Shown here piece after piece: positions 11,464 through 63,894 of a stretch of 64,000 bases of DNA. Source of the stretch: Brevibacterium sp. (GTDB lineage Bacteria; Actinomycetota; Actinomycetes; Actinomycetales; Brevibacteriaceae); the NCBI GenBank assembly GCA_030457025.1, contig JAKDSA010000004.1, forward strand, positions 19,706 to 83,705. Reading direction: 5' to 3'. The stretch's first letter is position 1. Every line of letters starts with the position of its first letter. A program made the position numbers and the translations under genes. The notes beneath the pieces are model-generated. The model saw nothing but the letters and a program-made list of their open reading frames with translations. It ran no database searches and was not told the DNA's origin.

Positions 11464-11531
11464 AGCCAAGGGTCGGCAAGTTCTCATCGATCGAGAGCGA
11501 AGAATCGATCAGGGCTTGCCGACTGTTGGGC
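11464..11531. repeat. 68-nt dyad element H (25/18/25)
   Basis: AGCCAAGGGTCGGCAAGTTCTCATC / GATCAGGGCTTGCCGACTGTTGGGC, about 18/25 paired. Arm resembles element G. Confidence 0.55.
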
Positions 11532-11555
11532 ACCTTGTTGGGCGGCGGATCCCCT

Positions 11556-12217
11556 TCAGTGCAGGGCGGCTCGCAGAGTCTTGTCGAACTCGCGGACATG
11601 TTCGGCCGCGTGGGCCTCGACGGCTGATTCCTTGCCCTCAAGGATCGCCTCGAGCAGATCGATGTGCTCGCGAATATGGCCGATGAGGTCGGGAATGCGA
11701 GGGATGACGAGGCACCAGATCCTCGTCGCCAGATCATCGAGGCGGACGAGAGTCTCCATGAGATGCGGGTTGTCGACCGAGCTGTAGATGAGGCGATGGA
11801 CCTCGAGGTCGCGCTCCACGAGGGCGCGTGGTTCGTCGGTCTCCTTCAGTTCCCGCAGATCAGCGATCGTCGCTTCGAACTCTCGACAGCGCTCGGGGGT
11901 GATATTGCGGGCGGCTTTGCGGGCGGCGATGGGCTCGAGGACCTCACGCATCTCGGAGATCGTCGACAGATCCTTGAGATCGATGTTGCTCGCGAAGGTT
12001 CCGCGTCGCGAGTAGGAGACGACGAGGTGGTCACTCTCCAGCCGCTTGAGCGCTTCCCTGATGGGGGTCCGCCCGACGTCGAGCTCGGCGCTCAGGCCCG
12101 CCTCGTTGATGGGGTCACCGGGGGCGATGTCGAGCATGATGAGGCGGTGGCGGAGGATCTCGTAGGCACGCTCGGCCAGAGACATCTTCTGCGACACCGC
12201 ATCGGCCGACGAATCCA
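11556..12217 (-). CDS. GntR family regulator (FCD-type)
   Basis: [56 protein letters not shown]. Divergent from the sox operon. Start chosen at [11 protein letters not shown]. Confidence 0.88.
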
Positions 12218-12324
12218 TTTTCACACTCCTGAGATCACCTATTGCGCATGTGCTTTTCCTCGTCATAGACTACAGGAACACACCTGATATATTAGTTGAT
12301 GATCAAACGGTCGAAGGAGATCGC

Positions 12325-13542
12325 ATGGCCGACCAACTCCCCGAACACCCGGACTTCCTGTGGCGCAACCCGGAACCGAAGAAGTCCTACGAGGCCGTCA
12401 TCATCGGCGGCGGCGGCCACGGTCTCGCGACGGCCTACTACCTCGCGAAGGACCACGGCATGACGAACATCGCCATCCTCGAACGCGGATGGCTGGCCGG
12501 GGGCAACATGGCCCGCAACACGACGATCATCCGCTCGAACTACCTCTGGGACGAGTCCGCCGCGATGTACGAGAAGTCCCTCAAACTCTGGGAGCAGCTG
12601 CCCGAGGAACTCGACTACGACTTCCTGTTCTCCCAGCGCGGAGTCCTCAACCTCGCCCACACCCTGCAGGATGTGCGTGAGTCCCAGAGGCGTGTGAATG
12701 CGAACGCGCTCAACGGCGTCGATGCCGAATGGCTCGACCCCGAGCAGGTCAAGGAAGTCTGCCCGATCATCAACATCGGCGACGACCTACGCTACCCGGT
12801 CATGGGCGGGACCTACCAGCCGCGTGCCGGCATCGCCAAGCATGACCACGTCGCCTGGGCCTTCGCCCGCAAGTGTGACGAAATGGGCGTCGACATCATC
12901 CAGAACTGCGAAGTCACCGGCATCGAACGCATCGGCGACAAGGTCGTCGGAGTCGAGACCAATCGCGGCAACATCGCCACCGAGAAGGTGGCCATGTGCG
13001 TGGCCGGCGACTCCTCGGTCCTGGCCGACATGGCCGGGATCCGACTGCCGATCCAGTCCCATCCGCTGCAGGCGCTGGTGTCCGAACTCTTCGAACCCGT
13101 CCACCCAACCGTCGTGATGTCCAACCACGTCCACGTTTACGTCTCCCAGGCGCACAAGGGCGAACTCGTCATGGGCGCCGGAGTCGACTCGTACAACGGA
13201 TACGGACAACGAGGCGGCTTCCACGTCATCGAAGAGCAGCTCGCCGCCGCGGTCGAACTCTTCCCGATCTTCGCCCGCGCCCATGTGCTGCGCACCTGGG
13301 GTGGAATTGTCGACGTCACCCTCGACGCCTCACCGATCGTGTCGAAGACCGAGGTCGCAGGACTCTACGCCAACTGCGGATGGGGCACCGGAGGCTTCAA
13401 GGGAACACCTGCCGCTGGCTTCACCTTCGCCCACACCATCGCGAACGACGAACCGCACCCGCTCAACGCCCCCTACGCGCTCGACCGGTTCGAAACCGGC
13501 CACCTCATCGACGAGCACGGCGCAGCCGCCGTGGCCCACTGA
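12325..13542 (+). CDS. soxB: Sarcosine oxidase beta subunit
   Basis: FAD-binding [58 protein letters not shown] before the ATG at 12325. Confidence 0.93.
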
Positions 13543-13567
13543 CCGGATCGACTCAGGAAGGACGACC

Positions 13568-13927
13568 ATGCTTCTCATCGACTGCCCGCACTGCGGGCCA
13601 CGCGACGAAACCGAATTCCACTACGGCGGGCAGGCCCACGTTGCCTACCCGGCCGACCCCCACGCACTGAGCGACCGGGAGTGGGCCGAGTTCCTCTTCT
13701 ATCGCGACAACGACCGCGGCCTCTATGCCGAGAGGTGGAGCCACAGCCTCGGCTGCCGCAAGTGGTTCAACGCCATCCGCGACACCGTGACCTATGACTT
13801 CACGGCCATCTATCCCATGGGCCAGGCCCGACCCGACACCGCCGAGGCTGCTCCACAGGCCTCAGCAATCGCCGAGGCCGACCCACAGCCCCATCCCACC
13901 GCCGGTTTCGAAGGAGCGGTCCGATGA
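13568..13927 (+). CDS. soxD: Sarcosine oxidase delta subunit
   Basis: [24 protein letters not shown]...[22 protein letters not shown]. Confidence 0.93.
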
Positions 13928-16900
13928 CGCACTCCGCTCGTCCTTCCGGTTCGACTCACCTGTCCGGTCCGACTCGCCTCGACCACGCGACCGGCATCGA
14001 CCGGTCGCGCCACATCTCCTTCAGCGTCGACGGCCAGCAGCACACAGGCTTCGCCGGTGACACCATCGCCAGTGCGCTCATCGCCTCCGGCCGCATCGAC
14101 TGCGGAGCCTCGACGTACCTGGGACGGTCCCGCGGGATCCTCAGCGCCGGCATCGAAGAGTCGAATGCCCTGGTCCGGGTCAAGGGACGTATCCCCGGCG
14201 ATGTCAGCGAATCCATGCTGCCCGCCACCCGCGTGCCCATCACCGAGGGCCTCGAGGCCGATTACCTCTCGGGCTTGGGCATCCTCGACCCCGGTCAGGA
14301 CGAACTCGTCTACGAGCACAAGCACATCCATGTCGACGTCCTCATCGTCGGTGCCGGACCCGCCGGTCTGGCCGCCGCCCGGGAGGCCGGGAAGTCAGGC
14401 GCCAGGACGCTCCTGCTCGACGACCGGTCCGCTCCCGGTGGCTCGCTGCTCTCCAGCCCGGGACGCAGTGTCGAGGGAGCCCTCGACGAGTCCATCGACG
14501 AGGTGCCCGCCCCCGAGTGGATCGAGGCCACCGTCAACGGCTTCGCCGAGGCGGAGGAAATCACGTACCGTCCGAACACGACCGTCTTCGGCAGCTATGA
14601 TTCGAACTTCTTCGTCGCCCTCGAAGACCGGACACGCGAACTCGTCGAAACCGAGGGCACGGGCTCCGGCGCGAGCGCGGGCTCTGCCGACAGCGACCGG
14701 GACGACACCGCCTCCCGCGCGGGCACCCGGCAGCGGGTGTGGCACATCCGGGCCAAGCAGGTCGTGCTCGCCACGGGAGCCCATGAGCGCCCCATCGTGT
14801 TCGCCGACAACGACCGACCGGGCATCATGCTCGCTTCGGCCGTGAGAACCTACCTCAACCGCTTCGGCGTCGCCGCGGGTCAGCGCATCGCGATCGCGGC
14901 GACGAACGATTCGGCCTACGAACTGCTGGCCGATCTGCACGCGGCCGGAATCGACGTTCCGGCGATCATCGACTCCCGGGCCACCGCCTCGGCGATGGCC
15001 GAGAGAGTCGTCGACACGACGGGAACCCGACTCATCCTCGGCTCCACGGTCACCGGCACCGCAGGCGAGGGCCCGGCGGGGCGCATCAGCCGGGTCACCG
15101 TCGCAGCCCTCGATGAGGACGCTGTGGCGGCCGGTCACGGCGAAGACATCGACGTCGACCTGCTCGCTGTGGCCGGAGGGTTCTCCCCGGTCATCCACCT
15201 GCACGGACAGCGCAGAGGGCCAATCGTCTGGCGGGCCGACATCGCCGCCTTCGTCCCGAAGACACCGGTGCGCGACCAGTTCACCGTCGGCGCGATCAAT
15301 GGTGACTACTCCCTCGAAGCGGCTCTCAAAGACGGTGCCGAGGCGGGCAATGCCGCAGCCAACCGCTCCGGCTTCGCCGCCGCGCTCACCGTTCCCAAGG
15401 CCGCGGCGATGACCTTTGCACCGGCGCGCCCACTGTGGCTGGTCACCTCGGCCGAGGACGATCACACGGCGCTGACCACGCACTTCATCGACTTTCAGCG
15501 CGATCAGAGCGTGGCGGACGTGCAGCGGGCGATGAACGCAGGCATGCGCTCGGTCGAGCACATCAAGCGCTACACCTCGATCTCTACAGGAGGCGACCAG
15601 GGCAAGACGAGTGCGGTCAATGCCATCGGCGCGATCACCAGCATCCTCGGCGAGACCGACCTGGGCTCGGTCGGGCACACGACCTTCCGCGCTCCCTTCG
15701 CCCCGGTGCCCTTCGCAGCATTGGCCGGCCGGCGGAAGGGCGAGCTGTTCGATCCGGCGCGCATCACCGCGATCCACCCCTGGCACGTGGCCCACGGAGC
15801 CGAGTTCGAAGACGTCGGAGGGTGGAAGCGGCCCTGGTACTACCCCCGCCCGGGCGAGGACATGGAGGCAGCGGTGCTGCGCGAGGGCAAGGCCGTGCGC
15901 GAATCGGTCGGCTTCCAGGACGCCTCGACGCTGGGCAAGATCGAGATCCGCGGCACCGACGCCGGCGAGTTCCTCGGCCAGATCTACACGAACGGCTTCA
16001 AGAAACTGGGGGTCGGCAAGGGCCGCTACGGTCTCATGTGCACACCCGACGGCATGATCTTCGACGACGGCGTCACCCTGCGCGTGGCCGAGGACCGCTA
16101 CCTCATGACCACGACCACCGGCGGTGCCGCGACCGTCCTCGAATGGCTCGAGGAATGGCACCAGACCGAATGGCCGCATCTCGACGTTGTCTTCACCTCG
16201 GTGACGGAGCAGTGGTCGACCGTCGCGGTCGCCGGCCCCAGGTCGCGAGACGTCATCGCCAAGATCGCCCCGAACCTCGACGTGTCCAATGAGAACTTCG
16301 AGTTCATGGGCTTCCGCGAGACGACCCTGGCGGGCGGGATCCCGGCGCGCATCTGCCGGATCTCCTTCTCCGGTGAGCTGGCCTTCGAGGTCAATGTCGA
16401 GAACTACTACGGCCTGGCCGTGTGGGAGGCCGTCGCCGAGGCGGGGGCCGAGTTCGACATCACCCCCTACGGCACCGAGGTCATGCACGTCCTGCGTGCC
16501 GAGAAGGGTTTCATCATCGTCGGTCAGGACACCGACGGGACCGTGACCCCGCAGGATGCGGGCATGGAGTGGATCGTCTCGAAGTTCAAGGACTTCATCG
16601 GCAAACGCTCATACTCACGGATCGACACGGCCCGCGAGGACCGCAAACACCTCGTCGGGGTCCTTCCCGTCGACGGCACGACCCGGCTGGCCGAAGGTGC
16701 GCAGCTCATCACCTCGGGCACCCCGGTGACTCCGGAGGCCGGGCCTGTGCCGATGATCGGCCACGTCACCTCCTCCTACATGTCGCCGAGCCTCGATCGC
16801 CCGATCGGTCTCGCCTTCGTCGAGAACGGCCGGAACCGGACGGGTGAGATCATCCAATCCCCGGTTGCAGGCAGCCTCGTCGACGTCGAGATCACCTCGC

Positions 16901-16941
16901 CCGTCTTCTACGATCCAGAAGGGAACCGCCGTGATGGCTGA
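13924..16941 (+). CDS. soxA: Sarcosine oxidase alpha subunit
   Basis: 1005 aa. N-terminal [10 protein letters not shown]-type domain, FAD domain [19 protein letters not shown]-terminal GcvT/aminomethyltransferase domain. Confidence 0.95.
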
Positions 16942-17671
16942 CACCACCCACACCACCGAGCATCGCCAGAGACAGCTGCGCACCGTCGAGTCCTCCGCCG
17001 AGGCGCTCGATGCCCTCCGCGTCTCTCCCGGAGCCCACCTCGCCGAGGAGATGGCCACGGCCACCAAGGCCGGCGCAGACGCCGTGGGGCTGCGGGAACG
17101 AGTCTTCGCCGTCCAGCTCGGGCTGCGTTGTACGCCGCGAACCGCCTCGGCCGAGGCGCTCGAGTCTGCTCTCGGGATCACCTTGCCCACGCAGATCGGC
17201 GAGGTCACCGGTGACGAAGCGGGACTGTATGCGCTCTGGCTGAGTCCCGATGAGTTCCTCGTCGTCGACGTCTCCCGGCGTCAGCGGCCCGGAGAGACCC
17301 TCGTCGCCGAGGCCTCCCTCGAGGGGCTACCGGGACAGGCTGTGGATCTGTCAGCGAACCGCACGATCCTCGAACTGACCGGGTCGAAGGCCCGTGAGGT
17401 CCTTGAGAAGAGCGTCCGCACCGACCTCCACCCGCGGGCCTTCGGCGTCAGCACGGCGATCTCGACCCAGCTGGGGACGGTGCCGGTCATCCTGCACCAC
17501 TCCGCAGCGCTCGAATACCGCGTCTATCCGCGGGCGAGCTTCGCGGACTTCACGGTCCGCTGGCTGCTCGACGGAATGGCGGAGTTCCTCATCGACGGAG
17601 GTGCCGCGGACCTCGCCGGCAGCACGAGTGCCATCGGCACCGCGAGTGCCGAGGCCGAGAGCAGGCACTGA
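16934..17671 (+). CDS. soxG: Sarcosine oxidase gamma subunit
   Basis: Position after sox[16 protein letters not shown] and [33 protein letters not shown]. Confidence 0.9.
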
Positions 17672-18909
17672 TGGCACTCGGTGTTCTCGACCTCTTCTCC
17701 ATCGGCCACGGCTCCGACTCCGCAGTGCTGGCCGGGCTGTCGGGTCACGAACCCGAGACCCTCGACCCGGACATCGTGGCACCGTTGGTGACCGAGGTGA
17801 GAGCGCAGAGCTCGCTCAACCTCGGCGGGCGGAGGCCGATCGCCTTCGACCCGGAGACCGACATGGTCCTGCATCTGCGCGAATCGCTGCCCGGTCATCC
17901 CAACGGGATGCGGCTGAGCGCCGAGGTGGCCGGCTCCGTGATCGAACGCGACTACTATTCGATCGGGGGCGGCTTCGTCGTCACCGAGGACGAGATGGGA
18001 GGCGAATCCGACGTCTCACGCGACCGCTTCCATTTCTCGTCGGCCGATGAGCTGTTGGCGCTCTGCCGGGACAACGAGCTGAGTATCGCCGAGCTCATAG
18101 CGCTCAATGAGCGGCAGCGACAGGACGAGAGCGAACTGCGTAAGCAGCTGCTCGAGATCTGGGCCGTCATGCGCGAATGCGTCGACAACGGGTGTTCGCG
18201 CACCGAGGAGCAGCTTCCGGGCGGGCTGAAGGTGCGCAGGCGCGCGCCGGAGCTTCGGTCACGGCTCGAAGACGCCGAGTACCGGGCGACCGGGTCCCTC
18301 GACGCCCTCGAATGGGTCAACCTGTACGCGCTGGCCGTCAATGAGGAGAACGCCTCCGGAGGCCGAATCGTCACCGCTCCGACGAACGGTGCCGCGGGGA
18401 TCATCCCGGCTGTGCTGCACTACATGGACCGGTTCGTGATCGGCGATGACGAGTCCCAGCAGGTCAGAGACGAGGCCGTGGTGACATTCCTGCTCACCTC
18501 CGGCGCGATCGGGATCCTGTTCAAACGCAATGCCTCGATCTCCGGGGCGGAAGTCGGCTGTCAGGGTGAGGTCGGCTCTGCCTGTGCCATGGCCGCCGCC
18601 GGTTTGTGCGCCGTCCTCGGTGGGAGTCCCGAGCAGGTGGAGAACGCCGCCGAGATCGGGCTCGAACACAATCTGGGCCTGACCTGCGATCCGGTCGGGG
18701 GACTCTTCCAGGTCCCGTGCATCGAACGCAATGCCATCGCCGCGGTGAAGGCGATCAATGCGGCCCGGCTGTCCATGCACGGCGACGGCAGTCACCGGGT
18801 GAGTCTTGATCAGGCGATCGAGACGATGCGCCAGACTGGTGCCGACATGAAGTCGAAGTACAAGGAGACGTCACTCGGCGGACTCGCCGTCAACGTCGTC
18901 GAATGCTGA
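17671..18909 (+). CDS. sdaA: L-serine dehydratase (Fe-S type), apparently lacking ~40-50 aa near the N-terminus
   Basis: Cys ligands in VGCQGEVGSAC, LTCDPVGG, QVPCIERN, and C-terminal VNVVEC. Start overlaps the soxG stop (TGATG). Expected IGPSSSHTVGPM segment absent. Confidence 0.85.
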   Translation: MALGVLDLFSIGHGSDSAVLAGLSGHEPETLDPDIVAPLVTEVRAQSSLNLGGRRPIAFDPETDMVLHLRESLPGHPNGMRLSAEVAGSVIERDYYSIGGGFVVTEDEMGGESDVSRDRFHFSSADELLALCRDNELSIAELIALNERQRQDESELRKQLLEIWAVMRECVDNGCSRTEEQLPGGLKVRRRAPELRSRLEDAEYRATGSLDALEWVNLYALAVNEENASGGRIVTAPTNGAAGIIPAVLHYMDRFVIGDDESQQVRDEAVVTFLLTSGAIGILFKRNASISGAEVGCQGEVGSACAMAAAGLCAVLGGSPEQVENAAEIGLEHNLGLTCDPVGGLFQVPCIERNAIAAVKAINAARLSMHGDGSHRVSLDQAIETMRQTGADMKSKYKETSLGGLAVNVVEC

Positions 18910-18946
18910 GTTGCAGGCCGGCGGGCGCGGGACGACTGCGAGGGCC

Positions 18947-18979
18947 GGCTGCGCATGACGGCTGCGCATGACGGCTGCG
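18947..18979. repeat. 13-bp tandem repeat ggctgcgcatgac (2 full copies + partial)
   Basis: Direct reading of sequence between sdaA and purU. Confidence 0.85.
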
Positions 18980-19083
18980 AGGGGCGGACGACCACGTGCG
19001 AGGCCGCTGACCTGGGTGAAGTTGACCAGCACGCCCAACCCGCCAATGATAGAAGACACCCATCGAGTAAGGAAGCAGCGGAT

Positions 19084-19938
19084 ATGCAGGATTACATCTT
19101 CACCCTGGAATGCGACGAACGACCGGGCATTCTCCATTCCGTCACCGGTGCGCTGTTGACCCATGGGGGTGACATCAAGGAACTCAAGCAGTTCGACGAT
19201 CAGTACACGAAGCGCCTGTTCCTGCGCATCGACTTCAGCGTCGAGGAGGGCTCGAACGGTGCGATCGATGGACTGCGCAGCGACTTCGACGCTATCGGCA
19301 CCGAGTTCGGCGCTCGTTGGCAGATGTGGCCGCAGGGGGAGAAGCGTCGGGTCCTCATCATGGTCTCGAAGTTCGAACACTGCCTCAACGATCTGCTGTT
19401 CCGGTCCCGGGTCGGCGAACTGCCCATCGAGATCGCGGCCGTGGTGTCCAACCATCCCGACCACCGTGAACTCGTCGAATGGCACCACATCCCGTTCTTC
19501 CGCGTCCCGGTGACCAAGGAGACGAAGCCCGATGCGGAGGCGAAGCTGCTCGAGCTCGTCGACCGGTTCGAGGTCGATCTCGTCGTCCTCGCCCGCTACA
19601 TGCAGGTCCTCTCCGATGACCTGGCTCGCGAGCTGACAGGCAAAGCGATCAACATCCATCACTCGTTCCTGCCCTCGTTCAAGGGCGCCAAGCCCTACCA
19701 CCAGGCGTGGGAGCGGGGAGTCAAGACGGTCGGGGCGACCGCCCACTTCGTCAACAGCGAACTCGACGAAGGCCCGATCATCGCCCAGCAGCTCGTCGAG
19801 GTTGATCATGCGTTCGGCCCGCAGGACCTCGTCGCAGCCGGACGCGACGCCGAGTGCAAGGCCCTGTCCAATGCCGTGAAGTGGCACTGCGACGGCCGCG
19901 TCTTCCTCTCAGGCAAGCGCACCGTCGTCCTGCGCTGA
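19084..19938 (+). CDS. purU: Formyltetrahydrofolate deformylase
   Basis: N-terminal ACT domain (LECDERPGILHSVTGALLTHGGDIKELKQ), then NIHHSFLPSFKGAKPYHQAWERGVKTVGATAHFVNSELDEGPII. Confidence 0.95.
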   Translation: MQDYIFTLECDERPGILHSVTGALLTHGGDIKELKQFDDQYTKRLFLRIDFSVEEGSNGAIDGLRSDFDAIGTEFGARWQMWPQGEKRRVLIMVSKFEHCLNDLLFRSRVGELPIEIAAVVSNHPDHRELVEWHHIPFFRVPVTKETKPDAEAKLLELVDRFEVDLVVLARYMQVLSDDLARELTGKAINIHHSFLPSFKGAKPYHQAWERGVKTVGATAHFVNSELDEGPIIAQQLVEVDHAFGPQDLVAAGRDAECKALSNAVKWHCDGRVFLSGKRTVVLR

Positions 19939-19990
19939 GCCAGCGGGGCGACGCTGCTAGTCGACGCGGCGCGGTGCCGCTGCATTTCAT

Positions 19991-20058
19991 CGGGGGGCTA
20001 CCTTAGCTTCGAGAGCATACTCTATAGAGTGTGCTCTCGAAGCTAACCTGTACTCTCG
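19991..20058. repeat. 68-nt dyad element E (25/18/25; inner 44 nt nearly perfect palindrome 20003-20046)
   Basis: TTAGCTTCGAGAGCA...TGCTCTCGAAGCTAA, 15-bp perfect arms, with an inner ACTCTATAGAGT palindrome. Confidence 0.75.
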
Positions 20059-20097
20059 GCGACCTCGGCGACCTCGGCGACCTCGGCGACCTCGGCG
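20055..20097. repeat. 9-bp tandem repeat (ctcggcgac)x4 + partial
   Basis: Direct reading; abuts dyad E. Confidence 0.95.
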
Positions 20098-20119
20098 CCT
20101 GGGCGCCGGACCGCGGGGC

Positions 20120-21727
20120 TCAGCTGGGCTCGGGTTCCTGCGCCACGACGTTGAAGGTCTCCATCCTCGAATCCTGAGCGCCGCGGACATAGCCCGAGGG
20201 TGCTGCCGCGGTCATCCGGAGGAAATCGACGACCTCGGCGCTGAGGACCTCACCGGGCAGAACATTGGGCACACCGGGTGGATACGCGGCCAGAGCATCG
20301 GCCGAGACCCGACCGACCGCGTCGGCGAAGGACACCGTCCTGGGTGCCGCGAAGTAGGCATCACTGACCTCCAGGCGCTTCTCGCAGCTGCCCGGCAGGA
20401 CGATTGGCCGCTCCGGCTCAGACTCGGACCGCGGCAGCTCCTGCAGAGCGGTCCAGAAACGATCGACATCGACAGGTGAGGTGGCGCCGATGAGCAGCAG
20501 AAGCGCCGAAGGCGTCGCCAGTTCGCAGTAGATCCGATGGTCGCGGATGAGCTGGTACTGGGCATCGGCACCGGTGATCCCCGCGCCACGGGTGTCGATG
20601 ACGACCTTGAACGGGTCGTTGTCGATCGCATCATGACCGCCGAGGATGTCGGGAGTCGCGTCACGGAACCGCGCGTCGCTTCGGACTCGGCCTCGGATCT
20701 CCTCAGCGGTGGCCAGCGCTTCATCGATCGCCTCCGGGTGGGTGACCAGATGGCGGCGGGCCTCGTCGAGGGAGGACAGCAGGATCGCACTTGAGGAGGT
20801 CGACTGATAGGACTTCACGACCCGATCGACCAGCGTTTCGATGCGCCTGGCCTGTGGGCCGTGACCGAGGTGGATCATCGCGGACTGTGCGAGGGAGCCG
20901 GCGCCCTTGTGGGTGCTGGAGATGACGAGGTCGGCGCCCAGACGGACCGCGTTGACGGGCAGCTTCGGGTGCATGCCGAAGTGTGAGCCCCAGGCCTCAT
21001 CGACGATGAGGGGAACATCGTGGGCGTGGGCCACCTCGGCGATGGCGGCGATATCGGCCACAGCACCGAAGTAGCTGGGGGAGACGAGGTAGACCGCGGC
21101 GGAATCTGGGTGCTCGCTCAGGGCGTTCTCGACCTCGGCCGGGGTCACTCCGTGGGAGGAGCCGAGTCCGACATCGACGCGAGGGTGGATGAAGTGCGGG
21201 CGCAGCTCGGCGTGGGTGACACCGTCGATGACGGAGGAGTGGACGCTGCGCTGAAGGACGAATTCGCGGCCCAATCCCCGCACGACGGTCGTGGCGATGT
21301 GGTTGCCGCCCGATGCGCCGTTGGTGATGAACCAGGTCCGCGTCGCGCCCCAGGCCTCGGCAGCGAGTTGTTGAGCCTGCATGATCGGAGTCACCCGCTC
21401 GTGATTGATCATGCGCCAGTTCTCCTGGTCGACGCCGCTGAAGAGCATGGGGAAGTCGATGGACATGCCGGGCTCGCCGACGACTTCGGCTAGCCCCGGC
21501 GCGTGGTCGCGGCTGCCCTGGTGGGCGGGCACATGCAGGCGCTGCCAGTCCTCGGCGGCCAGGGAACGCAGCGCTTCGGCATACGGGGCGGTGTGCTGGC
21601 GGGGATCGACCATGGTGCCCGTCTCAGCCGTTTCGGGGGCAGTTTCGGTGCCCGGGACGGGGGCAGCCTCGGTGCCCGTGGCGGGGATGATTGCTGTGTC
21701 TGGATGGAGGTGAGTATCGGCGCGCAT
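20120..21727 (-). CDS. Orn/Lys/Arg-type PLP-dependent decarboxylase
   Basis: PLP lysine motif DLVISSTHKGAGSLAQSAM, VDEAWGSHFGMHP, C-terminal YPPGVPNVLPGE. Confidence 0.9.
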   Translation of the reverse strand: MRADTHLHPDTAIIPATGTEAAPVPGTETAPETAETGTMVDPRQHTAPYAEALRSLAAEDWQRLHVPAHQGSRDHAPGLAEVVGEPGMSIDFPMLFSGVDQENWRMINHERVTPIMQAQQLAAEAWGATRTWFITNGASGGNHIATTVVRGLGREFVLQRSVHSSVIDGVTHAELRPHFIHPRVDVGLGSSHGVTPAEVENALSEHPDSAAVYLVSPSYFGAVADIAAIAEVAHAHDVPLIVDEAWGSHFGMHPKLPVNAVRLGADLVISSTHKGAGSLAQSAMIHLGHGPQARRIETLVDRVVKSYQSTSSSAILLSSLDEARRHLVTHPEAIDEALATAEEIRGRVRSDARFRDATPDILGGHDAIDNDPFKVVIDTRGAGITGADAQYQLIRDHRIYCELATPSALLLLIGATSPVDVDRFWTALQELPRSESEPERPIVLPGSCEKRLEVSDAYFAAPRTVSFADAVGRVSADALAAYPPGVPNVLPGEVLSAEVVDFLRMTAAAPSGYVRGAQDSRMETFNVVAQEPEPS

Positions 21728-21801
21728 GGGACCCACACTATGAATTGAAGCTTGTCTACGATATAGCAAGAAACCATCTACGGTGACATAGTGTCTATGC
21801 C

Positions 21802-22734
21802 ATGATGAATCTGCAGCAGTTCCGGGTGCTCCTGGCGATCAGGGACGAGGGAAGCCTCAACCGTGCCGCCGAGGTGCTCGACCACGGAGTCCCGACCGTG
21901 ACCCATCATCTGCGCACCCTCGAATCCCATCTGCGGATCAGGCTCGTCGACCGGTCCCGCAACGGAGCCCGGCTGACCCCGCTGGGTGAGTCCTTCGCCG
22001 AGGAGATCGAGCCGGTGCTGGCACGCATCGACCGGGCCGAGCAGCTCGTCACCGCTCAACGCGATGCCGGGGTGGTGTCCCTGCGGGTCGGGTCATTCTC
22101 CTCGATCGGATCGCGTCTCCTTCCCGCCGCGATTGCGCAGCTCCAGCAGCGGACCTCTGTGCGGGTCGAAGTCGTCGAGGCCGAACCCAGCGAAGTCGTG
22201 AGGATGCTGCACAGTGGTGAGGTCCATGCCGGTCTCATCTACGACATTCCCGAGTTGCCCGAGTTCGCCGGGCCGGAGCTGAGACTGCGCACCCTTCTCG
22301 ACGAGCCGTACCGGGTCATGGTCGCCCGAGACGGAAGACTGGCGAGGCACGAGGTCCTCGACTTCGCGCTGATGAGCGATGTCGACTGGGTGTGCAGCCG
22401 CAACGAGTCAGAGGCCTCGGTGCGGGTGCTGCGACGGATCTCGCGGGGTCTCGGGTACGAACTGCGCGAACTCATGCGCAGCGATGACCTCTACATGATC
22501 CATGGGCTCGTGGCCGAGGGCCTCGGGTGCGCATTGACCACCGAGGTGGCCGTCGACACCGACTTCGACGTCGTCCTCCGACCCGCGAAGCAGGACCTGG
22601 GGCAGCGACGCGTGTCCTTCGTGACCCGTCCGGGACCGAACCCTGCCGCGGTGGGTTGGCTGGGCGAGATCCTCGGGTCGGTGGCGGCGCGACTGGAGGC
22701 CGCCTCGGCGACATCCTCGAATCCGAGACGGTGA
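21802..22734 (+). CDS. LysR family transcriptional regulator
   Basis: MNLQQFRVLLAIRDEGSLNRAAEVLDHGVPTVTHHLRTLESHL HTH. Divergent from the decarboxylase. Confidence 0.9.
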   Translation: MMNLQQFRVLLAIRDEGSLNRAAEVLDHGVPTVTHHLRTLESHLRIRLVDRSRNGARLTPLGESFAEEIEPVLARIDRAEQLVTAQRDAGVVSLRVGSFSSIGSRLLPAAIAQLQQRTSVRVEVVEAEPSEVVRMLHSGEVHAGLIYDIPELPEFAGPELRLRTLLDEPYRVMVARDGRLARHEVLDFALMSDVDWVCSRNESEASVRVLRRISRGLGYELRELMRSDDLYMIHGLVAEGLGCALTTEVAVDTDFDVVLRPAKQDLGQRRVSFVTRPGPNPAAVGWLGEILGSVAARLEAASATSSNPRR

Positions 22735-22783
22735 GCAGAAGCGCGGCCGGCGGGTAGGGCAGCGTCCTCCTCTTGGGCTTCGT

Positions 22784-22851
22784 CGAGCGCACACCTTAAC
22801 CTCGAGCGCGCATGCTGCAAGGTGTGCGCTCGAGGCTAAGGTGTCCGCTCG
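22784..22851. repeat. 68-nt dyad element F (25/18/25)
   Basis: CGAGCGCACACCTTAACCTCGAGCG / CGCTCGAGGCTAAGGTGTCCGCTCG, 23/25 paired. Confidence 0.8.
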
Positions 22852-22875
22852 ATGTTCACGTGTGTTCTGCGGTGA

Positions 22876-32121: not shown

Positions 32122-32189
32122 CGCCAACGGTTGGTACCTTCTCATCGAGAATCTTCGAATTTTCGAGCAGGAACTACCAACCGTTTGGG
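32122..32189. repeat. 68-nt dyad element G (25/18/25)
   Basis: CGCCAACGGTTGGTACCTTCTCATC / GAGCAGGAACTACCAACCGTTTGGG, about 18/25 paired. Arm resembles element H. Confidence 0.55.
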
Positions 32190-35221: not shown

Positions 35222-35289
35222 CGAAACAGCGGAGCAGCGCCGAGGCTGCTGTGCGTGCACCGTTGGTTCGACGCTGCACCGTTGTTTCG
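35222..35289. repeat. 68-nt dyad element A (25/18/25)
   Basis: CGAAACAGCGGAGCAGCGCCGAGGC / GGTTCGACGCTGCACCGTTGTTTCG; loop TGCTGTGCGTGCACCGTT. Confidence 0.75.
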
Positions 35290-38531: not shown

Positions 38532-38532
38532 G

Positions 38533-50706: not shown

Positions 50707-50732
50707 GGCGCGCTGAGGCGCGCCCGCAGCAC

Positions 50733-50800
50733 CGAAACACGGGCGCTGCGTCGAGTTGCGGGTTTGCACCCATGTGTCTCGACGCAGCGCCCGTGTTTCG
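50733..50800. repeat. 68-nt dyad element D (25/18/25)
   Basis: CGAAACACGGGCGCTGCGTCGAGTT / GTCTCGACGCAGCGCCCGTGTTTCG, 23/25 paired. Confidence 0.85.
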
Positions 50801-50830
50801 GCGGAGGCTCCTGGTGGCGCTGGTGCTGCC

Positions 50831-52045: not shown

Positions 52046-52245
52046 CGTTGAGCCTCCATTCGAAAGAATGCGGAAGGGGGCGAATGCCAGGAGAGTCGAC
52101 CGACCTCCTGAAATATCAGTCGTTCATCAGACGTGACTGCAGTCTCGCCGTTCGCTTATGCGTCTGTCAATAGCCGTCTCAGACACCAGCAGCCACCGTC
52201 TCAGAGGGTGGAGCCAGTGGCCGTTTGCTCCCGGGCATGTTCTTC

Positions 52246-53172
52246 CTATTCGCCGAGGCGGGTCGCCAGAATGTGCTGAGAGGTGGCCCGCAGGTGCCGC
52301 AGGGACTCCTTGATCAGTGGCGAATTACGGCTGCCGGCGCGGACTGCGGCGACGATCTTCCGGCTGAGTCGGCCCGGCCCGCTCAGACGGACTCGGGTGA
52401 CATTGTCCTCCCCAGCGAGGCTGACCAGTCGAGGGAGCAGACTGACGCCCACACCGACACCGACGAGCGCCGCCTGCGTCTCCCATTCGACGGATTCGTG
52501 CGAGATCCTCGGGGTCACGCCGGCCGCGGTGAAGGCGGCGATGAACAGTGCGTGATAGGGCGATCCGGGCACGGCGGTGATCCAATCCTCGGCGGCCAGT
52601 TCGGCCAGCGTCACGGATTCGAGCGTGGCGACCCTGTGGTCGGAGGGCACCATGACGTCGAGCGGGTCGTCGAGGAGGTCGACTTTCTCGAATCGGGGAT
52701 CGTCCTCAACCTGGACGTCGCCCTGCATGGAGACGACGACTGCGAGGTCGATGCGTTCGGCGATGAGGAGTTCGAGGCATCGCGTCGGACTTGCCTCGGT
52801 CACGTGGACCCTGGATTCGGGATGGGAGTTGCGCAGATGGGCTGCGAGCGGTGCGAGCAGATTCGACGATGCCGTGGAGAAGCCGCCGATGCCGAAGTGC
52901 GACGGAGACTGGTCGCCGGCGGTCAGGGAAGAGGCGCGGATGTCCTCCCACTCGGCGATGAGGCGGTCTGAACGGCGGACGAGATGCCTGCCTGTGGCGG
53001 TCAGGCGCAGGCCGCGTCCGTCCCTGGTCAGCAGGGTCATTCCGAGGCTCGCCTGGAGTTCGCGCAGCTGCCCGGACACCGCCGAGGGCGAGTAGCCGGT
53101 GAGCTCGGCAGTGGCGGCGACGGTGCCGCAGGCGGCGAACGTGCGCAGAGTGATGAGGCGCGGATCGATCAT
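52246..53172 (-). CDS. LysR family transcriptional regulator
   Basis: MIDPRLITLRTFAACGTVAATAELTGYSPSAVSGQLRELQASLG HTH. Divergent from gbcA. Confidence 0.9.
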   Translation of the reverse strand: MIDPRLITLRTFAACGTVAATAELTGYSPSAVSGQLRELQASLGMTLLTRDGRGLRLTATGRHLVRRSDRLIAEWEDIRASSLTAGDQSPSHFGIGGFSTASSNLLAPLAAHLRNSHPESRVHVTEASPTRCLELLIAERIDLAVVVSMQGDVQVEDDPRFEKVDLLDDPLDVMVPSDHRVATLESVTLAELAAEDWITAVPGSPYHALFIAAFTAAGVTPRISHESVEWETQAALVGVGVGVSLLPRLVSLAGEDNVTRVRLSGPGRLSRKIVAAVRAGSRNSPLIKESLRHLRATSQHILATRLGE

Positions 53173-53317
53173 GGTTCTATTGTGCCCTGGATCATGCGGA
53201 AGATCCGCACATAATCCACCGAAAACTCGCGCTTTTCCTGCAGTGTTCACCTCGCTATCGTCGACTGTGACGTCACGGGTTCCGACGGTCGTCACACAGC
53301 AGCGCACATCAAGGGAG

Positions 53318-54618
53318 ATGGAATTGACCGCAGTGAATCTGGCGCCGACGATGCAGGGTTTCCCTGCCGGCTTCAGCGAGGAGAGGCTCGACGAAATCCG
53401 ACGCCGTCTCGACACCCGACGCACCGGTTTCTCCCTCGAGGCTCCTTTCTACACCGATGACCATCTCTTCAATCTCGATATGCAGGCCATCTTCGGGCAG
53501 AACTGGGTCTTTGCCTGCAGCGTCGCGGAGATCCCCGAACCCGGTGACTACGTCACGCTCGACTACGGTCCCTACTCCCTCATTGTTCTCCGCACCGACG
53601 AGGGCGGAGTCAACGTCCTCCACAATGTGTGCCGCCACCGAGGCGCCCGAGTGCTGACCGAGGACACCGGAACCACCGGCAATCTGGTCTGCGGGTACCA
53701 CTCGTGGACCTATTCACCCGCGGGCGACCTCATCCACGCCTCGGCGCCGGGTGAGTTGGAATTCGACAAGGCCTGCTATTCGCTCAAGCGTGCGCACGGA
53801 AAGATCGTCGCAGGTCTCGTCTTCCTGTGCCTGGCCGAAGAGCCCCCGGCTGATTTCGACGACACCGCGGCGATCTTCGCGCCCTACGTCGGACCCCACG
53901 AACTGGCGAAGACGAAGGTCGCCTACCAGCAGAACATCATCGAGGAAGCCAACTGGAAGCTCGTGATGGAGAACAACCGCGAGTGCTACCACTGCGATGG
54001 TCACCCGGAGTTGGCCTGCGCTCTGTTCCCGACCTGGGGACTGACCGATGACACGATTCCACCCCACCTCGAGGAGGTCTGGGACCGCAATCAGCAAGCT
54101 CAGGCCTCGCTGGAATACCGGTGCCGACGCTACGGACTGCCCTACGAGGTCGTCGAAGAGCTCGACACCCGGATCGCCGGAATTCGGATCTCGCGCGAAT
54201 CACTCGACGGTCAGGGGGAGTCGTTCTCCGCCGACGGCAGGCGCCTGTCGAAGAAGCTCCTCGGCGATCTTCCCGATTTTCGCTTGGGTCGCTGTTCCAT
54301 GCATCTGCAGCCAAACAGCTGGTTCCACCTCCTCGGCGATCATGTGGTGACCTTCACCGTCCTCCCGATCAACGCGCACCAGACGCTGGTGCGCACCACC
54401 TGGCTCGTCGCCGATGATGCGGTCGAGGGTGTTGACTACGACCTCGAGACGTTGACGCATACGTGGAAGCAGACGAACCTGCAGGACAAGAACTTCGTCG
54501 AGCTCTGCCAGCGGGGCGCGGCAAGCCCGTTCTACGAGCAGGGCCCGTACATGAAGAGCGAATACCAGGTCGAGGCATTCATCAACTGGTATGTGACTCG
54601 GATGCGGGAGCATGTGGG

Positions 54619-54622
<4 letters not shown>
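53318..54622 (+). CDS. gbcA: Rieske-type glycine betaine monooxygenase-like oxygenase subunit
   Basis: Rieske CRHRG...CGYHSWTY; non-heme iron region ENNRECYHCDGHPELA. Confidence 0.87.
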
Positions 54623-58793
<4,171 letters not shown>

Positions 58794-58811
58794 TGGGCCC
58801 TTCACTCTTGC

Positions 58812-58879
58812 CGAAACCACGCCGCTGCTTCGAGACGCTTGTGCGTGCATAGTGGTCTCGAAACAACGGCGTGGTTTCG
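58812..58879. repeat. 68-nt dyad element B (25/18/25)
   Basis: CGAAACCACGCCGCTGCTTCGAGAC / GTCTCGAAACAACGGCGTGGTTTCG, 23/25 paired; loop GCTTGTGCGTGCATAGTG. Confidence 0.88.
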
Positions 58880-59048
58880 ATTGGGTGCTTGCAGTCCACC
58901 CGCTTCTCGGGATGGCGCCGACCGGGGAAGGACACTCCTCGTTCCATATGGTGGATTCGAATTGACCAATAACTGGGACTGACGAAAGTATGACAGCAGG
59001 AGTTACTGTCGACTGCCCCACCTCGGTGGAGGATCCAAAGGAGTGTCC

Positions 59049-59168
59049 ATGCCCAAGCCTGCGATCATCGGTTGGTCCCACGGAAAGTTCGGACGCTCCG
59101 AATCGCCTCTTCCCGAGATGATGGCCGATGCAGCCCGGGGTGCCATTGCTGATGGGACCTCGCACGAG
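59049..59168 (+). pseudogene. Possible thiolase N-terminal remnant
   Basis: MPKPAIIGWSHGKFGRSESPLPEMMADAARGAIADGTSHE* resembles the N-terminus of SCP2/thiolase-type proteins, then a stop. Confidence 0.4.
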
Positions 59169-59306
59169 TAGAGGAGGCCGGTGAGCGAGTCGACGGTCCT
59201 CGCCGGCGGCGAGGTCGATGACATGCTGCGTCTGAGGGGTGGGCACCGAGACGATCCTCGGCTCCTGCCGGTGGCCGGCATGGACGACCGCCTCGCCGGG
59301 CTCGCC

Positions 59307-59366
59307 GAGGCAGTATCCCGGTTCGTCGAGGCGGTGGCCCGGTTCGTCGAGGCGGTGGCTCGGGCC
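59307..59366. repeat. 21-bp tandem repeat gaggcggtggcccggttcgtc (~3 copies)
   Basis: Direct reading of sequence. Confidence 0.9.
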
Positions 59367-59428
59367 GGAGGGCGAGGCGACCGGCACTCGAGCCGGGGAG
59401 TCGGACTCGTGCGGGCCCGCGGAACCGG

Positions 59429-59876
59429 TCACAGCGCCTCCTCCTGACCGGCCACGGCATCGGCGATGAGCTGAGCTTCCTGGTAGAGCAGTGCGGCGAT
59501 TTCGAACACGCGGCTTCCCGTCAGCCGCTCCTCGATGCTGGCGATCGACAGTGCCGACCGAGGTTGGCGGCCCCGCTCGATGATCTCCTTGAGCGCTGGA
59601 ACGGATACCGCGGGATAGCGTTGTGCGAAGCTTCGGACTTTGGCGTCGACGAAGGCGTCCACCTCGGCGGTGGGGAACTGGGTCATGATGGCCAGGCTCC
59701 GGCCCCGATGCCGAGTGGATGGCGATCGCCCACGGCCAGGGCGTTGAGCATGCGGTGCCCGGTCCCAGATCGTCGACCGCATGGGCGATATTGAACGAGG
59801 CGGACCGGCTCATGATCCGCCCGCGCAGCCTCACCCGGTCGAGATCGTGTATCGGTGCTTCGCTGCCCATGCTCAC
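59429..59876 (-). pseudogene. Decayed IclR regulator with two internal deletions and a frameshift
   Basis: RGRIMSRSASFNIAHAVDDLGPGT and MTQFPTAEVDAFVDAKVRSFAQRYPAVSVPALKEIIERGRQ/PRSALSIASIEERLTG match the intact IclR at 22876-23766 but lack its HTH. Confidence 0.8.
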
Positions 59877-59937
59877 GATTATGCTGCGCAGGGAGTCGGT
59901 TGAGGAGCCGGATCCATGATGTGGACCGCAGATGGGG

Positions 59938-60849
59938 TCACCGCCGGGGAGCCAGGTGCCGACACAGGGCTTCGGCCATCAGCTCGATGCCCTCCGATTC
60001 CCGCTGCGGATCGGCGACGAGAACCTGAATGAAACGGGCGTCGAGACTGGGATCGTCAAGCTCCACGGCGGTGCACCCCGCCTCGGCGAGAGTATCCGGG
60101 ATCGTTCGCTGGGCCATCATCGCGATCATCGTCGTACCCGCCACGGCCCTCAGCGTCAGCACTGGGCAGGTGGCCTCGACCGCCGGAGAGAACACCTGCC
60201 CCTGCGCACGAACGGCCTGCTCGATCCTCATCCGAGCGGTGTTGCCAGCAGGCAGGGTGGCGATCGGATAGTCGACCAGATCACGGATGCGCAGGCTCGA
60301 CCGGCCGGCAAGGGGGTGAGTGCTGTCCAGGACCGCGAAATTTCGGGCCTGGATCTGATCGACCCGTCGGACCCCAGGGATCTCGACGTGATTGTGGCTC
60401 GATACGGAGAAGTTCACGCACAGGTCCGCCTGCCGGCGTTTCAGCACTTGGAGGGCTTCGAGGGAGTTCCGGTCGAGGACGGAGATCTGCACCCGGTCGG
60501 TGATGGTCATGACCTCGTTGATGGCATCGGCGACGACAGTCTGGCCCAGTCCCGTGCTGGTGACGACCGTGATGGTCTCCACGGAGCGGGAATAACCGCC
60601 GAAGGAATCGGAGAGCAGCTCGGATTCGGCGATCATCCGCCGTGCGAAATCGGCAACGGCCATGCCCTGGCCGGTGGGGACGACTCCGGTCGCCGATCGT
60701 TCGAACAATGTCGTCCCGTAATGGTCCTCAAGCGTTCTGACCTGACGGCTGGCGGTCGAATGTGAGACGAACAGAGCCCGCGCCGCGAGGTGGATCGAAC
60801 CGTATTCGACCACGGCCAGTAGGGTGGTGAGACTGCGGAGGTCGGTCAT
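59938..60849 (-). CDS. LysR family transcriptional regulator
   Basis: LRSLTTLLAVVEYGSIHLAARALFVSHSTASRQVRTLEDHYGTTLFERS HTH. Confidence 0.9.
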   Translation of the reverse strand: MTDLRSLTTLLAVVEYGSIHLAARALFVSHSTASRQVRTLEDHYGTTLFERSATGVVPTGQGMAVADFARRMIAESELLSDSFGGYSRSVETITVVTSTGLGQTVVADAINEVMTITDRVQISVLDRNSLEALQVLKRRQADLCVNFSVSSHNHVEIPGVRRVDQIQARNFAVLDSTHPLAGRSSLRIRDLVDYPIATLPAGNTARMRIEQAVRAQGQVFSPAVEATCPVLTLRAVAGTTMIAMMAQRTIPDTLAEAGCTAVELDDPSLDARFIQVLVADPQRESEGIELMAEALCRHLAPRR

Positions 60850-60964
60850 GGCGTCATGCTACGCGTGGTGGTGCGCAACGTGCACCACCTCCGTGCAGGA
60901 TTCGCACCGGTCTGCGGACAGATCGGCCTTCCGGTTCCGCAGTCGGTTCGGCGACGCTGGATGC

Positions 60965-62500
60965 ATGACCTCAGATCACAGCACCGGCCGCGATGAGGCG
61001 GCACCCGACCAAGCAGTACGCAGCGATGGCTCACCGTCCGAGGCACCCGCTGCCGACCGAGAGTCCGTCACCCGCGCCGCAGGCGAGTCCGTCCGCAGCG
61101 AGGCCTTCTTCGACCAGCTCGCCGCCCGGGTCGCCCGACGCACCGAGAGCCAGGCCGAAGGCAACGGAGCCGCCGCACGAGCCTACCTCGCCGAGGAGAT
61201 CGTTCCCGAGCTCACTGCGCTGGGCTTCGACTCCACGATCCACGACAACCCGGAATCCGCCGAACACCCGCTGCTCATCGCCTCCCGCATCGAAGATCCG
61301 AACCTGCCCACCGTCCTCCTCTACGGTCACGGCGACGTGCAGTTCGCTCACGACGCGCAATGGTCCGAGGGCCTCGACCCCTGGGTGCTCACCCGCGACG
61401 GCGACCGACTCTACGGCCGCGGCAGTGCTGACAACAAGGGCCAGCACACCGTGAACTCGCTTGCACTGTCGACGCTGCTCGACGCTGTCGCAGCGGGTGG
61501 ACCTGCGACCGACGGGAAGCTCGGATACAACGTGAAGGTCCTCATCGAAACCGCCGAGGAGGCCGGTTCGCGCGGGCTCAAAGCCTTCGCAGCCGCGCAC
61601 CAGGCAGAGCTCGACGCCGACCTCTTCCTCGCCTCCGACGGTCCGCGGATCGCGGCCGAGCACCCGACGCTCTTCCTCGGCTCCCGCGGGGCACTGAACT
61701 TCACGCTCATCGTTCATGACCGCGACGGAGACCACCATTCGGGAAATTGGGGCGGGAAGCTGCGCAACCCAGCCACCGTCCTCGCCGCCGCCGTGAACTC
61801 CCTCGTCGACGGCAACGGGATCATCCGCATTCCCGCACTGCGGCCGGCGGCCCCGCCCACGTCGGTGCTCGACGCAGTGGCGAAGCTGCCTGAAGTGGTC
61901 GAAGAGGGATCGCCGACAGTCGATCGTGACTGGGGTGAGCCCGGACTGACCTCGGCGGAGCGGGTCTTCGCCTTCAACGTCATCGAGGTGCTCGCCCTCG
62001 AGGCAGGAAATCCGGACCAAGTCGTCAATGCGATCCCGGGGACGGCCGCAGCGCATATGCAGCTGCGTTTCGTCGTCGGCACCGACGTCGATGACGTCGA
62101 GACCACGGTGCGAACCCACCTCGAGGAGCAGGGAATCCACGGTGTCGACATCGTCGCCGCGCACTGCATGCCGGCCACCCGCCTGGACCCGAATGCCCGC
62201 GTTGTCGCGGCGGCAGCGGAATCGATCAAGGCAACGACCGGCCTCGAGGCCGCTATCGAACCGAATCTGGGCGGCACCATTCCCAACGATGTGTTCGCCG
62301 AGGTGCTGGGCCTGCCGACCGTGTGGGTGCCGCATTCGTACCCCGGATGCAATCAGCACGCTCCCGACGAACACGCCCTGTCTTCGATTCTCGAACAGGG
62401 GGCTGAGATCATGGCGGGAATGTTCTGGGACATGAGGCAGAACCCGGATGACTGGTTCACCTCGAAGGGCCCCTCGGCGAGCACAGGAGACGCGCAATGA
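60965..62500 (+). CDS. M20 family peptidase/dipeptidase
   Basis: VLLYGHGDVQFAHDAQWSEGLDPWVLTRDGDRLYGRGSADNKGQH, LIETAEEAGSRGL. Confidence 0.9.
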   Translation: MTSDHSTGRDEAAPDQAVRSDGSPSEAPAADRESVTRAAGESVRSEAFFDQLAARVARRTESQAEGNGAAARAYLAEEIVPELTALGFDSTIHDNPESAEHPLLIASRIEDPNLPTVLLYGHGDVQFAHDAQWSEGLDPWVLTRDGDRLYGRGSADNKGQHTVNSLALSTLLDAVAAGGPATDGKLGYNVKVLIETAEEAGSRGLKAFAAAHQAELDADLFLASDGPRIAAEHPTLFLGSRGALNFTLIVHDRDGDHHSGNWGGKLRNPATVLAAAVNSLVDGNGIIRIPALRPAAPPTSVLDAVAKLPEVVEEGSPTVDRDWGEPGLTSAERVFAFNVIEVLALEAGNPDQVVNAIPGTAAAHMQLRFVVGTDVDDVETTVRTHLEEQGIHGVDIVAAHCMPATRLDPNARVVAAAAESIKATTGLEAAIEPNLGGTIPNDVFAEVLGLPTVWVPHSYPGCNQHAPDEHALSSILEQGAEIMAGMFWDMRQNPDDWFTSKGPSASTGDAQ

Positions 62501-63795
62501 GCGAGCACACGATGGCTGCGACTGCCGCCTCGGCGACCAAGCCCGTGCGGCCGTGGAAGGTGATCGTCGCCGCCTCCATCGGCAACGCCCTTGAGTGGTA
62601 CGACATTGCGATCTATGCCTACTTCTCGGTCTACATCTCCGTCGCCTTCTTCCCGTCCGAGAGCCACTCGGTGTCCATCATGCTGGCGCTGGGCACCTTC
62701 GCCCTGTCGTTCTTCATCCGACCCGTCGGTGCGATCGTGCTCGGCAGCTACGCCGACCGCAAGGGCCGCAAACCGGCGCTGACGCTGACGATCTGGCTGA
62801 TGTTCCTGGGCACGCTGATGATCGTCGTCATGCCTCCGGCCCATGTCATCGGCCTGGCCGCCCCGCTGCTCATCCTGCTCGCCCGTCTGATCCAGGGCTT
62901 CGCCGCGGGTGGGGAGTTCGGATCAGCGACCTCACTCATGGTCGAACACCTGCCCAATCGCAAGGGCTTCGCCGCCAGCTGGCAATTCACCTCCCAAGCG
63001 ATGTCGACGATCCTGGCTTCCGTCATCGGTGTCAGCCTGACGACCGGCTTGAGCCAGGAGCAGCTCGAGACCTGGGGTTTCCGTCTGCCCTTCATCGTGG
63101 GCCTGCTGGTCGGACCCATCGGCCTCTACATCCGCCGTCATGTCCCCGAATCACCGGAATTCACCGCCCTCGCGGCTGAGGCACCGAAGCAGACAGCAGC
63201 GATCGGCGGAATCCTGCGCCACCACAAGCTGGCCGTGGTCCTGGCCATCGGCGCCATCGCGGTCTCGACCTGCCTCAACTACTTCATCACCTACGTACCC
63301 ACCTACGCCGTGGACAACCTGGGAATGACGAGCTCTGCCGGCTTCTGGGCCACCCTGGTCTCGGGCATCGTCCTGCTCCTCGTCACCCCGGTCGCCGGCT
63401 ACTTCTGCGACAAGGTCGGACGACTGACATTTATGATCCCGGCTGCCGTGGCCGTGATGGTGCTGACGTGGGTGCTCTTCACCTGGGTCGTCGCGGCCAA
63501 TGCGCTGAGCGTGCTCATCGTCGTCGTCGCGATCTTCTCGGTGCTCAAGGCCGCCTACTATGGTCCGCTGGCCAGCGTCATGGGCGACATCTTCCCCACC
63601 GAGGTGCGCGGCACAGGGCTGTCCCTGGGCTACAACATCGGCGTCGCCATCTTCGGTGGGCTGACACCGCTCGTCGCCGCCTGGCTGATCGGCATCACAG
63701 GTGATGCGAAGGCGCCTGCCTACTGGGTGCTGCTGGCCGGTGTGCTCAGCGTCAGCGCAATCCTCGTGGCCTGGAAGAAGCTCGGCGTGCGCTGA
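62497..63795 (+). CDS. MFS transporter, metabolite:H+ symporter type
   Basis: ASIGNALEWYDIAIYAYFSVYIS, FIRPVGAIVLGSYADRKGRKPAL. ATGA overlap with the peptidase gene. Confidence 0.9.
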   Translation: MSEHTMAATAASATKPVRPWKVIVAASIGNALEWYDIAIYAYFSVYISVAFFPSESHSVSIMLALGTFALSFFIRPVGAIVLGSYADRKGRKPALTLTIWLMFLGTLMIVVMPPAHVIGLAAPLLILLARLIQGFAAGGEFGSATSLMVEHLPNRKGFAASWQFTSQAMSTILASVIGVSLTTGLSQEQLETWGFRLPFIVGLLVGPIGLYIRRHVPESPEFTALAAEAPKQTAAIGGILRHHKLAVVLAIGAIAVSTCLNYFITYVPTYAVDNLGMTSSAGFWATLVSGIVLLLVTPVAGYFCDKVGRLTFMIPAAVAVMVLTWVLFTWVVAANALSVLIVVVAIFSVLKAAYYGPLASVMGDIFPTEVRGTGLSLGYNIGVAIFGGLTPLVAAWLIGITGDAKAPAYWVLLAGVLSVSAILVAWKKLGVR

Positions 63796-63826
63796 CTCGG
63801 TGCGCACTGACTCGGTGCGCGCCCGT

Positions 63827-63894
63827 CGAGAAACGGGGTGCGTGTCGAGACGCATGTGCGTGCGCATGGTTTTCGACGCTCAACCCGTTTCTCG
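63827..63894. repeat. 68-nt dyad element C (25/18/25)
   Basis: CGAGAAACGGGGTGCGTGTCGAGAC / TTTTCGACGCTCAACCCGTTTCTCG, about 20/25 paired; loop GCATGTGCGTGCGCATGG. Confidence 0.75.

Follow-up and report, generated by a model that had tools for sequence, protein, structure and literature searches.

Hairpins at the contig end

The window examined here is a stretch of 64,000 nucleotides at the end of contig JAKDSA010000004.1, from the 3.42 Mb draft genome of a Brevibacterium species (assembly GCA_030457025.1), and it carries eight long hairpins, A to H, in the gaps between its genes. For one gene of the window, Brevibacterium species supplied the nearest relatives. The initial annotation had treated the hairpins as a single family with 25-nt arms and an 18-nt loop. 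On re-reading, all eight dyads were present where they had been placed and all fold as long hairpins; they belong, however, to three dispersed repeat families and not to one, each hairpin being a solo copy, and each family has its own partner gene.

Family I is represented by four elements of 68 nt. Element A (35222..35289) lies in the divergent gap upstream of paaA, B (58812..58879) follows a DAO/GcvT-domain gene and has orthologous 68-nt copies in 10 other Brevibacterium species, C (63827..63894) lies close to the end of the contig after an MFS transporter gene and D (50733..50800) occupies the convergent gap between M20 peptidase and alcohol dehydrogenase genes. The family II elements, also of 68 nt, are E (19991..20058), between a formyltransferase-domain gene and a convergent Orn-Lys-Arg decarboxylase gene, and F (22784..22851), between convergent LysR and IclR genes. 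Family III includes G, a 60-nt core (32126..32185) within positions 32122-32189 in the convergent gap between aldehyde dehydrogenase-MaoC and TetR genes, and H, a 60-nt core (11468..11527) within positions 11464-11531 in the convergent gap between a cytochrome b561-domain gene and a GntR gene. Inspection of the open reading frame list placed five of the eight elements (H, E, F, G and D) in convergent gaps; downstream of B no clear gene appears for about 1 kb and no gene follows C before the contig ends.

The arm pairing, counted by hand in the initial annotation, proved exact for every element, with 23 of 25 positions matching in B, D and F, 20 in A and C and 18 in E, G and H, and the three arm subfamilies that it distinguished (I, A-D; II, E-F; III, G-H) are real. 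The supposed 18-nt loop is mostly base-paired and leaves an apex of about 4 nt. In an ungapped dyad scan of the window the elements scored 16.6-26.2, and seven exceeded the top score of 18.0 obtained from 20 Markov-shuffled windows, G falling below it at 16.6; twelve dyads reached a score of at least 16 in the real window against a mean of 0.45 per shuffled window. The elements had not been recognised as a named family and an Rfam scan of the window yielded no match at gathering score. The window constitutes a local cluster, with eight elements where about one would be expected if the genome total is 45-60, a total which is itself an estimate. Also present in the window are an ordinary terminator-like hairpin (11339-11378; 18-bp stem, 4-nt loop), situated between the gene that ends at 11305 and element H, and a long-loop dyad spanning 99 nt (6006-6104; score 19) which matches none of the families.

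Three dispersed repeat families

Further copies were found outside the window in 424 kb of the same genome, and eight family I copies align without gaps over 68 columns. Covariance models, as the initial annotation had suggested, were built for families I, II and III; copy numbers are given as model matches, stricter filters being applied in the scans of the genus. In the latter the models matched 29, 24 and 30 times, respectively, in the genome under study, and the number of elements is about half the number of matches because a palindrome usually matches on both strands. Matches extended across Brevibacterium, with family I occurring in 31, family II in 26 and family III in 15 of 41 genomes.

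The units are sharply bounded, the mean information per position being 0.85-0.96 bit within the unit and 0.07-0.13 bit in the flanks. For families I and II the fixed 68-nt unit and 25/18/25 geometry stand, with about 3 weakly conserved nt on each side, and the corresponding means are 0.85-0.94 and 0.07-0.09 bit. They do not hold for family III, where the unit is 60 nt (positions 5-64), the 4 outermost nt of both G and H being unpaired and unconserved; a single 68-nt family that includes G and H is thereby ruled out. Other hairpin families of Brevibacterium are about 52-76 nt long, and at least 20 families occur among the VSR-like gene loci of the genus.

Placement and possible transcript termination

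The conservative view of the initial annotation was that the hairpins are bidirectional intrinsic terminators without a U-tract, in which case a long GC-rich stem would be retained at convergent gene pairs and the likeness between copies would have arisen by spreading or conversion of good terminators. Placement lends this some support, since family I copies are enriched at convergent gene pairs, 22 of 35 being convergent, 11 tandem and 2 divergent compared with 38, 77 and 45 of 160 in the background; these proportions are approximate because, within the window, H and F were wrongly assigned by the rough gene caller. The missing U-tract was likewise borne out. No T-run lies directly 3' of the stems at the eight elements, the adjoining 8 nt containing 0-4 T on each strand, which rules out an intrinsic terminator of the U-tract kind, and a simple terminator scanner, run on the 50-64 kb region, passed over B and D and called a single inner stem within C. 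Terminators do not, however, predict a fixed, family-specific length with sharp ends, or the position of A in a divergent gap, and a function in termination alone leaves the repeated families, their fixed length and their partner genes unexplained. We consider this explanation unlikely, and a terminator role may be secondary to a role as mobile elements.

Partner genes

The partner genes lie outside the window, and that of family I was reached through family I copies that occur in pairs, separated by about 1.1 kb. Between the paired copies (clusters 0 and 2) is a gene of about 325 codons, and its protein has a weakly AbiEi-like N-terminus and a VSR/DUF559-like C-terminus. Family II brackets a paralogue of this gene (L179, L190 and L199) and family III a gene for a 312-amino acid DUF559 protein (L217, L281 and L283). 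The first flanking hairpin is upstream of the start codon and the second at or just past the stop codon, an arrangement of matching hairpins on either side of a gene that is not predicted for terminators.

At 49 of 69 VSR-like genes of Brevibacterium the upstream flank matches the downstream one, compared with 2 of 352 control genes (Fisher ~4e-45, uncorrected for species relatedness), the 69 loci not being independent because some are orthologues. The bracketing is family-specific. Pairs of loci have the same hairpin family in 95% of cases when their proteins are at least 70% identical, in 33% at 55-70% identity and in none below 55%, and the Mantel correlation between hairpin family and protein identity (rho 0.38) exceeds the maximum of 999 permutations (0.17). 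A VSR-like gene of the genome under study, on contig C177 (L192), lacks matching flanking hairpins, and among the control genes L027:12812-14015 has two flanks that match each other with a score of 50.

Residues E214, D247, E258 and G261 are invariant in 38 diverse partner proteins. At E values up to 0.1, 21 of the 38 matched the DUF559 profile and 17 matched REase_MTES_1575, and several loci exceed the DUF559 cut-off. The partner-protein profile also gave weak matches to PDB entries 3hrl, which is endonuclease-like, and 3r3p, a mobile intron protein which we take to be I-Bth0305I. On the strength of the profile match and the conserved E...D...E motif, the partner proteins are predicted to belong to the VSR/DUF559 nuclease superfamily.

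AbiEi antitoxins are DNA-binding autoregulators, and one hairpin does lie upstream of the gene, so that the hairpins could be seen as operators of the AbiEi-like protein, forming either a binding-site regulon or the palindromic control sites of a type IV toxin-antitoxin or defence system. Such operators would fit poorly with the solo copies, which avoid promoter-bearing divergent gaps, with the location of the second hairpin at the gene end and with the invariance of the nuclease residues, and we regard this explanation as highly improbable.

Variation at orthologous sites

At the site of B, 11 species carry a 68-nt hairpin with differing arms, and both sides have changed in 22 of 32 pairs. 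The impression that the two arms change together therefore extends to a single orthologous site. As many as 87.5% of the cells remain paired, exceeding shuffles (0/500) and slid versions, although hairpin formation was itself the way in which the elements were recognised, so that ascertainment contributes to this percentage; stronger evidence that pairing has been kept comes from the double changes within a single orthologous site. Further species carry a different hairpin at this site, or none. Both the paired changes and the replacement or lack of the hairpin at one site also speak for the terminator explanation. At L057 the site of B, 48-103 nt after the orthologue of the window gene 56238-58793, holds instead a hairpin resembling the gene-flank hairpins of L201 and L207.

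The gap orthologous to that of D varies by species and contains a copy, a copy with a half copy, a copy with a family III copy, or none; families I and III lie adjacent there at L047:368-515, L053:415-570 and L052:279-426. Half elements consisting of the left arm only directly precede full hairpins, like REP singlets, at L075 and L048, in the gap orthologous to D, and after the HAD gene (L137-L139, L145, L147, L148, L150, L151 and L153).

The convergent site HAD-cls exists in three states. Without an element the gap is 27-78 nt (7 genomes), with one solo hairpin, which belongs to one of three families, it is 111-263 nt (8 genomes) and with a hairpin-gene-hairpin unit, in those cases where both ends are in range, it is 1265-1377 nt (7 genomes). 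Hairpins have therefore been gained or lost at orthologous sites, and the hairpin-free state of this convergent site in some species counts against the terminator explanation. Elsewhere in the genus these convergent sites are occupied by two more hairpin families, with arms near AGGTCGCTAACGGATA and TCTCCTGCGGGTGGATCC (L134, L135, L140, L144, L058; L136, L141, L142).

Stable genes and dispersed hairpins

A gene lying between two copies, in a unit that is present or absent at the HAD-cls site, is also what an autonomous transposon would produce if hairpin, gene and hairpin moved as a whole and the solo hairpins were deletion remnants or miniature inverted-repeat transposable elements. Within each of 8 genomes, however, the sampled paralogues, in sets that are not exhaustive, are at most 58% identical, and no near-identical whole units at different loci, as expected of an autonomous insertion sequence, were seen among them. 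Moreover, a neighbouring gene is common to every pair of members in nearly all clusters (45/45 for cluster 0, 15/15 for cluster 1, 10/10 for cluster 2, 3/3 for cluster 3 and 6/6 for cluster 4, with 1/3 for cluster 6). The partner genes are single-copy and syntenic while the hairpins disperse, and an autonomous transposon appears very unlikely.

Copy number is higher where the gene is intact. The median number of family I model matches is 29 among the 16 genomes that possess the gene but 3 among the 25 that lack it, presence being defined as at least 54% identity, a threshold that was chosen after the families had been seen. The same contrast is found between close relatives, as judged by HAD protein identity, with 22, 24 and 29 matches in G033, G011 and G020 and 8, 8 and 6 in G007, G008 and G035.

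Other actinomycete genera

Relatives of the partner protein were detected in 109 of 148 Actinomycetes genomes, representing 67 of 82 genera, and outside Brevibacterium the two flanks match one another at 21 of 29 VSR-like loci compared with 2 of 118 control genes. As an out-of-sample test, one gene-flank palindrome of another genus, TGATCATGGAGAA...TTCTCCATGATCA, was searched for in 12 genomes with spans of 46-71 nt allowed. It was present in 7-44 copies each in 6 of 7 genomes of genus g43 (6 of at least 8 related genomes tried), nearly all of the listed copies being 56-57 nt long, and it was absent from the other genera searched; a control with the pattern reversed gave none. So many closely similar copies per genome are not predicted for terminators. 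The three genomes G174, G099 and G184 of this genus carry 33-44 copies each, and copies also lie beside VSR-like genes (L314 and L318).

A phage origin is not supported, no relative having been found in two scans of viral contigs, which constitute weak evidence as they reach close relatives only.

Comparison with known systems

The VSR-fold homing endonuclease domain promotes DNA mobility. The nuclease domain of the partner proteins is distantly similar, by a weak profile match, to the VSR-fold (EDxHD) homing endonucleases such as I-Bth0305I; the present systems differ in that no intron or intein was seen, and in having palindromes, present in many solo copies, on both sides of the gene. The likeness to type IV toxin-antitoxin AbiEi (PMC3985639) lies in an N-terminal winged helix and is weak (PF13338, E 0.005, below the Pfam cut-off), whereas the C-terminal nuclease domain and the palindromes are peculiar to the present systems.

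REPINs consist of palindromic doublets, 71 bp long in the case of GI, which show compensatory changes and are linked to RAYT genes (PMC3116915), and the REPIN/RAYT systems, or REPtrons, are known from Pseudomonas, E. coli and others (PMC3116915, PMC3733652, PMC8266576). The Brevibacterium hairpins resemble them in being short extragenic palindromes of fixed length with compensatory changes, in lying mainly 3' of genes, in the occurrence of half copies (singlets) and in forming dispersed families each tied to one single-copy gene bracketed by repeats. They differ in the enzyme, a Y1/HUH transposase in REPtrons and a VSR/DUF559 PD-(D/E)XK-like domain in the partner here, and in their hosts. The groups listed as carrying GTAG REPs are Proteobacteria, Cyanobacteria, Chloroflexi and PVC bacteria, whereas Actinomycetes, the hosts of the present elements, are named for neither GTAG nor CGTC REPs (PMC3733652). 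The CGTC REPs, for which there is no known transposase, are similarly dispersed palindromic repeats at gene ends without an adjacent Y1 transposase, but their stems are 8-9 bp and they have no known partner gene, compared with about 25-32 bp and a partner gene here (PMC3733652).

Element style and placement are sufficiently alike to raise the question of classical REPs moved by RAYT, a Y1 tyrosine transposase (PMC3116915, PMC3733652). PF01797 was detected in 0 of 41 Brevibacterium genomes by a search that was positive in control genomes, so that a RAYT/IS200 partner is refuted for Brevibacterium at the sensitivity of that search. Moreover, no GTAG tag was found within about 6 nt of any of the eight elements and the family consensus flanks are without any tag. 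The likelihood of this explanation is negligible.

Like REPtrons, the present systems exhibit dispersed extragenic hairpin repeats of fixed unit, a single-copy bracketed partner and hairpin families that track protein families. Given the shared plan but the differing tag and enzyme, the elements would therefore work like REPtrons without being members of that group, and they are set apart as a new kind, with a REPtron-like working style, because mobile elements are classified by enzyme. The open-access literature yielded no report of this pairing of hairpin and nuclease; subscription journals may hold one.

Probable mobile palindromes and their putative nucleases

The mobile element class that the initial annotation had named beside selection on a folded RNA or cruciform DNA is well supported by sharp boundaries in unrelated flanks, by the family-specific partner genes and by presence or absence at orthologous sites. 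The hairpins are probably solo REPIN-like mobile palindromes, each family being tied to one stable, single-copy VSR/DUF559 nuclease gene bracketed by palindromes. On balance we also favour the view that they belong to a second, independently evolved REPIN-like class, widespread in Actinomycetes, in which a VSR/DUF559 nuclease, and not an HUH transposase, spreads its cognate palindromes in trans.

Several observations weigh against these mobile palindromes with nuclease partners. Matching flanks are lacking at 20 of the 69 VSR-like Brevibacterium genes, and the AbiEi likeness, below the Pfam cut-off, is weak. Genome G021 has 30 family I matches although no family I gene was detected in it, several other genomes without the gene hold 11-16 matches, and the contrast in copy number is uncorrected for phylogeny. 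The comparisons, which were between species with flanks too diverged to define duplications, revealed neither a movement event nor an excision product nor a target-site duplication. Furthermore, selection for termination could likewise keep the hairpins paired.

The protein would bind and cut the elements and mobilise or maintain them. Its N-terminal region is a putative DNA-binding, AbiEi-like winged helix or one of another kind. It would recognise its own palindrome as a duplex, a cruciform or a single-stranded hairpin, and the nuclease domain would break the DNA at the palindrome, after which repair could copy or re-insert the short element elsewhere. Purifying selection would then confine most copies to the 3' ends of genes, and there they may have an additional function as U-less bidirectional terminators. 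Alternatively, the protein may maintain or police the elements rather than move them.

If this is correct, a large group of actinobacterial orphan genes that now carry an AbiEi-like or DUF559 annotation would acquire a partner and a testable function, and the abundant intergenic palindromes of actinobacterial genomes would be explained. REPIN-like partnerships between palindromes and enzymes would have had two or more origins, involving unrelated enzymes, and the numerous cognate pairs of protein and hairpin would constitute a natural specificity code.

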